64,000 nucleotides of DNA. Source: Halorussus limi (GTDB taxonomy: Archaea > Halobacteriota > Halobacteria > Halobacteriales > Haladaptataceae). Below are positions 59,466 through 61,209 of this stretch, piece after piece (within the stretch, counting starts at the first letter, position 1; each line of letters opens with the position of its first letter). The notes under the pieces were generated by a model. That model was not told the origin of the DNA, ran no database searches, and saw only the letters and a program-made list of their open reading frames with translations. The stretch is taken from contig NZ_CP096659.1 of assembly GCF_023238205.1 (NCBI RefSeq), positions 620,001 to 684,000 of the forward strand. Reading direction: 5' to 3'. The position numbers and the translations under genes are program-made.

Positions 59466-60152
59466 TCACGACCGAGAAGCAAAACCGGCGTCGCGCTCGA
59501 CCGTCGTCCGGCCCGCGTCGTCCGCGAGGCCGAACCCGGCGCGTCGGAGCCACGACCGGGCGCGACTCGCCTCGCGAGGGTCAGCACCGGAAGAACTGTC
59601 TCGGCCGCCGCGGGGCGCGCTCCCGCCGTGAATCAGCACCTCCGCCAAATCAGCGCGCTCGTCCACGTCGGTCGCCAGTCGGTGCGAGTCCACGGCCTCG
59701 ACGCCGGCGCCGACCGCCCGCGCCGCGTCGAGGTGGTCCAGATACGAGGTGCCGTGGTAGTCCGCCCGGAACTCCGGGTGGCGCGCGACGACGGCGTTGG
59801 TCCCGCCGCCGCGACCCGGCGCGAGGACCACGTCGCCGTCGGTGTCGAACAGGGCCGCGAGCGCGCCGGGCGTCGCCAGCGCGAGGTCGGCCATCACCAC
59901 CGTGACCGGTTCGTCGGTCTCGGCGAGGACGGCGTTGACCGCCTCGGTCAGCGGCCGCGGGTCCACGGTGACGGGCGCGTCCGCCTCGACGGGCGCTGTG
60001 GCGAGAATCTCGGGGTCGCGGCCGATCGCGCGGACCGCCGCCAGCACGTCGGCCAGCATCGCCTCGGCGAACGCCGTCCGCTCGTCGGACGACAGCGTGT
60101 CGGCTAACCGGGTCTTGGGCTCCTCGGCGGCGTACGGGACCACGACTCGCAT
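59466..60152 (-). CDS. cofC: 2-phospho-L-lactate guanylyltransferase
   Basis: 228 residues. MRVVVPYAAEEPKTRLADTL is the nucleotidyltransferase start, with the K-T-R-L phosphate site. VTVVMADLALATPGALAALF near 83-102 and DVVLAPGRGGGTNAVVARHP near 107-126 are the CofC signature. It activates the lactyl group that is joined to FO in F420 synthesis. Upstream of cofG on the same strand. The residues after about 195 are a poorly conserved Arg/Ser-rich tail. Confidence 0.9.
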   Translation of the reverse strand: MRVVVPYAAEEPKTRLADTLSSDERTAFAEAMLADVLAAVRAIGRDPEILATAPVEADAPVTVDPRPLTEAVNAVLAETDEPVTVVMADLALATPGALAALFDTDGDVVLAPGRGGGTNAVVARHPEFRADYHGTSYLDHLDAARAVGAGVEAVDSHRLATDVDERADLAEVLIHGGSAPRGGRDSSSGADPREASRARSWLRRAGFGLADDAGRTTVERDAGFASRS

Positions 60153-60254
60153 GCTCGCTTTCCAACTCGCGCGTCCTGCCTTAAGAGGCTACGGAATGGC
60201 GGTGGTCGGGGTCGGTGGCGGCCGAGCGTCGTCGGTGGGAAAGCGTCGCTGTCG

Positions 60255-60363
60255 GCCGAGCGGCGGAAGAGCCGCCGCTCGGCAATCTCCATATTTCTGA
60301 AAGAAATACACACGTTTCTTCGAGAAACGCGTAAATGGTTCCGGTGACGGTCGTCCGTCACCG
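60255..60363. repeat. Row of four perfect stem-loops
   Basis: Four hairpins stand in series. First, 60255-60266 with 60272-60283 (12-bp stem GCCGAGCGGCGG, loop AAGAG). Second, 60292-60298 with 60302-60308 (TATTTCT, loop GAA). Third, 60313-60319 with 60323-60329 (CGTTTCT, loop TCG). Fourth, 60342-60350 with 60355-60363 (CGGTGACGG, loop TCGT). The two middle ones share a TTTCT...AGAAA core. They fill much of the gap between the secreted protein gene and cofC. Structured RNA, terminators or a regulatory element are possible. Confidence 0.7.
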
Positions 60364-60420: not shown

Positions 60421-61209
60421 TCAGCGAAGTTTGTCGTAGTCGTCCTGCTGGTTCGAGCGGTACCACAGCGCGCCGCCCACCACGACGACCAGCGCGAGCA
60501 GTCCCGCGCCGCCGTAGAGCAGCATCTGGGTCTGCTGGCTCGACTGCTGGGAGTTCTTGGCCTTCTTCTTGGCCTCGCTGGCGAGGTCCACCGCGTTGCC
60601 GAAGTTCTCGGCGTCGAACGCCGAGACGGCGTTGTCGAGCGTGTCCTCCGCGCCGGAGACGCTCGCGCCGGAGTTCTTGGCCGAGTCGATGGCGCTCTGG
60701 GCCGAGTCGATGGCGTCGCGGGCCTCTTGGCTCTCCTCGGTGTACGGTCGGAACGTCCACTTGTCGATGGAGTCGCTACTGCCGCCCTCGCGGAACTGGT
60801 TCAGTTCGGCCAGCGTCAGTTTCTGAGCGGGGTCGTAGCTGTAGTTCTCGACTTCGGGAACGGTCCCCTTAACGACGACCTTCACCTCGAAGGCGTCGCT
60901 CTTCTTCAGCGAGTGGTTGAACGACTGACCGTCGTAGGACTTCTGGTCGATTTTCGACCCGCCCTGGTCGAACAGTTGGACGGTCCACGTCACGTCGGTC
61001 AGTTCGGTCTTTCCGTTCAGCGTCCACGTGTCGTACTCGCTGAACGGCTTCGTGATGGTGAACGTCGACTGTACGTCTTCGCCGACCTGCTTCTCGTCGG
61101 GCGCGCCGCTGGCGGACGCCGACATCGCCGCGGCGGGACCGACCGCCGAGACGACCAGCGTCGTGGCGAGCAACAGCGTGAGTAGTTTAGAACAGTGGTT
61201 CGAGTTCAT
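60421..61209 (-). CDS. Secreted or membrane-anchored protein following CetZ
   Basis: 262 residues. An N-terminal signal (LLTLLLATTLVVSAVGPAAA) precedes a beta-rich part (about 45-140) with TITKPFSEYDTWTLNGKTELTDV. A helical, Ala/Ser-rich segment (EARDAIDSAQSAIDSAKNSG near 165) follows. Then come a membrane helix (MLLYGGAGLLALVVVVGGALWY, about 228-250) and a short charged tail, so most of it lies outside. The ATG overlaps the cetZ end by 23 bases, showing coupling. It may link the cell surface to CetZ, by inference only. Confidence 0.8.
   Translation of the reverse strand: MNSNHCSKLLTLLLATTLVVSAVGPAAAMSASASGAPDEKQVGEDVQSTFTITKPFSEYDTWTLNGKTELTDVTWTVQLFDQGGSKIDQKSYDGQSFNHSLKKSDAFEVKVVVKGTVPEVENYSYDPAQKLTLAELNQFREGGSSDSIDKWTFRPYTEESQEARDAIDSAQSAIDSAKNSGASVSGAEDTLDNAVSAFDAENFGNAVDLASEAKKKAKNSQQSSQQTQMLLYGGAGLLALVVVVGGALWYRSNQQDDYDKLR

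Follow-up and report, generated by a model that had tools for sequence, protein, structure and literature searches.

Two helically phased dyads behind a secreted-protein gene of Halorussus limi probably form a protein-binding array of a Halorussus intergenic family

The window analyzed here is a 64,000-nucleotide stretch of the Halorussus limi genome (contig NZ_CP096659.1, positions 620,001 to 684,000). Toward its end, a 268-bp gap between two minus-strand genes, extending from the stop codon of a gene for a secreted protein at 60421 to the start of cofC at 60152, holds four stem-loops (Table 1). The secreted protein matched no Pfam family at E 0.001; its gene is present in all 18 Halorussus genomes, with relatives at 75-87% identity in H. 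salinisoli, H. aquaticus, and H. ruber. The candidate promoter of cofC, CATTCCGTAGCCTCTTAAGG, is near-identical in many Halorussus species, and the remaining gap is hardly alignable. In three of the 18 genomes (G001, G011, and G017), no cofC start was recognized behind the secreted gene, and in some of them a different gene seems to come next.

Table 1. Features of the gap between the secreted-protein gene and cofC, with coordinates in the window.
Feature	Position	Strand	Basis	Remark
cofC	59466..60152	-	Pfam CofC, E 3.8e-38	Downstream in sense direction
Likely cofC promoter, sense CATTCCGTAGCCTCTTAAGG	60179..60200	-	Conservation; putative promoter role	About 95 bp or more from the array
GC-rich hairpin, 12-bp stem, loop 5	60255-60266/60272-60283		Perfect inverted repeat	Adjoins the array
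Array unit 1, dyad TATTTCT-GAA-AGAAATA, center 60300	60292-60298/60302-60308		Perfect 7-bp inverted repeat, loop 3	Unit-model score 27.0
Array unit 2, dyad CGTTTCT-TCG-AGAAACG, center 60321	60313-60319/60323-60329		Perfect 7-bp inverted repeat, loop 3	Unit-model score 16.5
GC-rich hairpin, 9-bp stem, loop 4	60342-60350/60355-60363		Perfect inverted repeat	Other side of the array
Secreted/membrane-anchored protein gene, 262 aa	60421..61209	-	ORF	Upstream in sense direction, beside CetZ-like gene

The first-pass annotation of this DNA, made from the letters alone, had described four mismatch-free stem-loops of 12, 7, 7, and 9 bp with loops of 3-5 bases within 109 bases, located outside any gene between the secreted gene and cofC, with a TTTCT...AGAAA core shared by the two middle stems. 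All of these features were found as described, and so was the claim that such a row is unlike random DNA borne out. The perfect stems total 35 bp per 109 bases, which is the maximum of the window; 12 order-2 Markov simulations of the window gave at best 22 bp, and no other independent cluster exceeded 21 bp in the 864 kb of this genome that were surveyed (the window and 40 further stretches). The four-stem cluster is the densest across the 864 kb examined. The four stems do not, however, form one series as had been supposed: the two AT-rich dyads in the middle and the two GC-rich hairpins on the outside behave differently in relatives.

Both middle stems are AT-rich dyads of one form, TTTCTNNNAGAAA, and their centers lie exactly 21 bp apart, a distance of two DNA turns, with half-sites alternating at about half of it. 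A model describing one unit only, built from 29 pairs, is characterized by the consensus RTTKCT-NNN-AGMAAY with the core CT-NNN-AG. In this unit, the C at -3 and the G at +3 are conserved to the same degree (0.92) as the A/T positions, and the T/G and A/C choices of the two half-sites are mutually independent. Distances between unit matches were counted on stretches not selected for sites, comprising 400 kb of G002, 200 kb each of G007 and G015, and 800 kb of the H. limi genome. The most frequent distance in all four genomes was 21 bp, with 19, 6, 6, and 4 pairs, respectively, against no more than 2 pairs at any of 49 unrelated distances and 0 to 4 pairs at distances of 20 and 22; the training pairs had themselves been picked at 21 bp and included the pair of the window, at least one of them falls within a counted H. 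limi stretch, and independence is lost for a few of the pairs counted. G002 also has peaks at 42 and 63, and profiles reveal additional in-phase units on both sides of the arrays. Within the window, the pair centered at 60300 and 60321 is the sole one at 21 bp, and none was counted at the other distances from 13 to 70.

The single dyad occurs six times in the H. limi genome and its reversed pattern once. Looking for the motif in other haloarchaeal genomes, as the first-pass annotation had proposed, proved informative: of 293 genomes of the order, only 4, each of them Halorussus, contain a dyad pair with an 8-base gap and up to 2 mismatches, and none contains its reversed control. When the gap was left free between 2 and 30, the 18 genomes of the genus gave 17 matches (control 0), 11 of which have a gap of 8 and three a gap of 29 (8 + 21), with the rest at 9, 23, and 25. 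Relaxed pairs numbered 46 in G002, 20 in G015, 19 in G007, and 7 in H. limi, against 2, 2, 1, and 2 in the respective controls; most Halorussus species have 0 to 3, and ten genomes of the family outside the genus total 9 versus 20 in the control. By these pattern counts, the array family is confined to one branch of Halorussus. In a species tree of 17 of the 18 genomes (G014, with a split protein, was omitted), the six array-rich species fall within one fork of nine (support 85/90) and do not form one clade. The idea that array-bearing species are a single clade was abandoned, as their distribution takes 4 changes on the tree, a number as low in 102 of 500 shuffles. The family is small in H. 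limi itself, where two of the seven relaxed pairs represent one array inside a coding gene. The triple array at 2670633 of this genome was set aside; the coding gene that holds it has counterparts in G002 and G005, such a triple of array-like units is found within a gene in three species, and protein constraint is its best explanation.

At the locus itself, the gap behind the secreted gene was scored in 18 genomes against 300 shuffles each, with 420 bases taken in the three genomes in which no cofC was found downstream. An in-phase array scores above every one of the 300 shuffles in six of the 18 (H. limi, G002, G005, G008, G010, and G015). The signal in G007 is weak (P 0.037), and the other 11 genomes scored show no significant array. 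Counted from the start of the 12-bp hairpin, units at -65, -44, and -23 share one register in H. limi, G010, and G008. The -44 unit is the sole one that is strong in all three genomes (scores of 16.5, 16.6, and 12.2, in that order); the corresponding scores are 27.0, 9.1, and -16.0 at -23, and -14.5, 5.2, and 4.3 at -65.

The outer GC-rich stems are ordinary intergenic hairpins, separate from the array. In the locus alignment, which is weak, comprises five sequences, and lets the array register slip, of the 12 pairs in the larger hairpin, 11 persist in G010, 10 in G008, and 8 in G002, and the hairpin is absent in G005; the 9-bp hairpin is mostly broken, with 4 to 6 of 9 pairs in G010, G005, and G008, and a gapped 7 of 9 in G002. 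One outer hairpin is common to one relative and partly to another, and the other is the lineage's own. Stems of at least 12 bp number three in 800 kb of the H. limi genome outside the window. We also considered GC-rich hairpins as a part of the arrays. Of 59 G002 arrays, 22 have a hairpin with a stem of at least 9 bp within 90 bp, compared with 37 of 242 intergenic pieces of that genome (taken from regions of at least 200 bp, some perhaps containing arrays) and 37 of 577 pieces from genes, but the association is suggestive only, because G002 is unusually hairpin-rich everywhere, and the candidate was dropped. In 800 kb, G002 carries 134 perfect GC-rich hairpins with stems of at least 12 bp and up to 22 bp, 68 of them in predicted genes and 66 between genes; several share a GCGCAG-NN-CTGCGC core that is also present in G007 and G015.

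For the row as a whole, the first-pass annotation had named three possibilities: a structured small RNA, a 3' processing element, and a folded DNA site. A small RNA or processed 3' UTR built from all four stems would agree with the very stable predicted fold of the stem region (-56.5 kcal/mol as single-stranded RNA, z -8.3 against shuffles) and with a four-stem row unique in 864 kb. However, the window has no Rfam match at the gathering threshold, and stem number, order, and sequence vary between species. A 256-base query of the whole stretch, searched in 59 genomes (H. limi and 58 relatives), found no second copy in its own genome, where only itself matched; a repeated copy was likewise rejected for the relatives, since the eight genomes with matches (H. 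limi and seven congeners) match mostly at the gene edges flanking the stretch, with an extension further in for G010. Dyads that acted as RNA hairpins should show a change in one arm answered by a change in its partner, and this is not so in 170 units of the genus. Their arms pair slightly less often than chance (0.542 versus 0.571 in shuffles), and compensation occurs in 34 of 63 double changes where 42 would be expected, so that the covariation analysis that had been suggested speaks against RNA. An alternative register of the units (92 cases) showed no arm compensation either, and at the locus, in the weak alignment of five sequences, the arms of the two middle stems are mostly broken in relatives and not compensated. 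One conserved four-stem RNA was rejected in view of conservation, covariation, and the missing Rfam match, and a structured small RNA or processed 3' UTR in general is highly improbable; the 3' processing element is not supported by the same results. Exact helical phasing without covariation argues instead for protein sites on DNA. Of the folded DNA site, the DNA part stands, in the form of tandem protein sites 21 bp apart, for which the DNA need not fold.

The placement of the arrays relative to genes was examined in a set of 83 from the sequence analyzed, in which part of the G002, G007, and G015 stretches had been chosen because they had sites. The majority, 77, lie between predicted genes with both neighbors known, five lie in genes, and one at the end of a stretch; about 80% of the G002 sequence is called coding by the simple codon-usage script employed, which reproduced the genes of the window, some with later starts. 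By orientation, the 77 intergenic arrays comprise 46 in tandem, 15 in convergent, and 16 in divergent regions, shares close to those of 492 G002 intergenic regions (277, 85, and 130, respectively). The array family is mostly intergenic and without an evident functional theme; a regulon was considered and not retained, as the genes adjoining divergent arrays looked unrelated when judged by their first residues only.

These data bear on a further explanation, namely, that the array terminates transcription of the secreted gene or serves as its 3'-end element, with U-rich tracts and hairpins that end or stabilize the transcript and a palindrome that serves both strands. Among the tandem-region arrays, 32 of 46 are closer to the preceding stop codon, all 15 convergent-region arrays lie within 118 bp of a stop, and the spacers lean toward T in the sense strand (26 T-rich and 14 A-rich of 44, P 0.08). 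Haloarchaeal terminators likewise have T-rich tracts and hairpins behind genes, and T-tracts act as terminators in Haloferax, where a hairpin could also do so in part, according to the available part of that report (PMC7237163). Termination, however, does not need a strict 21-bp phase, and an intrinsic terminator would be confined to gene 3' ends, whereas the 16 divergent arrays have no gene end beside them and their share is little below that of divergent regions overall. Fixed phasing, divergent occurrence, and genus restriction set the arrays apart from the terminators described there, and a separate T-rich stretch directly follows the stop codon of the secreted gene, in several relatives as well. 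The bias within tandem regions may come from promoter avoidance and not from a pull toward gene ends. Neither a small RNA nor a terminator finds support at this locus, the latter being unlikely; some arrays may have a terminator role, which would leave the phasing and the divergent sites unexplained.

Comparison with known systems relies on sources available in part. Archaeal Lrp regulators are described as binding a 13-bp palindromic site (FL11 co-crystal) and clusters of imperfect sites with two- or three-turn spacing as cooperative dimers (PMC2995911, in the portion available). The Halorussus arrays resemble them in that the unit is a palindrome of about 13-15 bp and the units are aligned, with the peak at 21 bp and, in G002, at 42 and 63; unlike the Lrp/AsnC clusters described there, they lie away from promoters, and their protein is only predicted. 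The consensus differs from TATCA-N4-TGATA, the motif given for the haloarchaeal Lrp-type regulator CsmR in the accessible text (PMC13286277). SegB sites, in the part of the account at hand (PMC12284271), are 13-bp palindromes scattered over an archaeal chromosome beside functionally varied genes, and the Halorussus arrays are similarly short palindromes dispersed next to varied genes. Identity with SegB sites was nevertheless rejected, since their core is AGA-S-TCT and they lie mostly in genes, in contrast to the CT-NNN-AG core, the 77 of 83 intergenic positions, and the 21-bp tandem arrangement found here.

Histone-like or bend-driven wrapping offers another reading, in which the alternation of half-sites at about 10.5 bp is a phased A-tract pattern and not a set of regulator sites. 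Such alternation of A- and T-rich steps is common to the Halorussus arrays and to the HpyA-bound regions of Halobacterium, for which a 10.4-bp AA/TT/TA periodicity is reported and, in the part of that study available, no motif was found (PMC10128011). The arrays differ from those regions in having a defined dyad with fixed C and G, which a bend preference would not need, and in being limited to one branch of a genus. Wrapping of this kind is a weaker rival and seems very unlikely to account for the arrays.

The most convincing explanation, which we consider likely, is that the two middle dyads are a cooperative DNA-binding array for a predicted dimeric protein and one member of the Halorussus intergenic array family. 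A dimeric DNA-binding protein probably docks on each dyad, and dimers on adjacent units would touch across two helical turns and cooperate. By analogy, the Lrp/AsnC family is the best guess for the protein type, because its sites combine a 13-bp palindrome, clustering, and two- or three-turn spacing, as far as the available part of the Lrp report shows. The array of the window follows the stop codon of the secreted gene at a distance of about 90-130 bp and is well removed, on the upstream side, from the cofC promoter. With this placement, a role as a boundary, a local chromatin site, or a regulatory site acting at long range is more likely than one as an on/off operator on that promoter.

Haloarchaeal chromosomes are thought not to be histone-packed in the usual way. 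To our knowledge, few site-specific organizing proteins of these chromosomes have been described. We infer, tentatively and as a possibility clearly short of likely, that the Halorussus branch carries genome-wide phased docking sites which, with their predicted cooperative protein, would mark gene boundaries or organize the chromosome as a site-specific chromatin or insulator layer. The richest species would have perhaps some two hundred arrays, a figure extrapolated from G002, in which 400 kb of unselected sequence contain 16 intergenic arrays. Searches of the open PubMed Central literature turned up nothing on such arrays or such an insulator layer in haloarchaea. For the window, a plausible RNA reading is corrected to a DNA reading. 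For the genus, a phased family of sites with a sharp consensus provides both bait for an organizing protein and a map of its expected positions, and the wide differences in copy number between Halorussus species make gain and loss of the system directly open to study.
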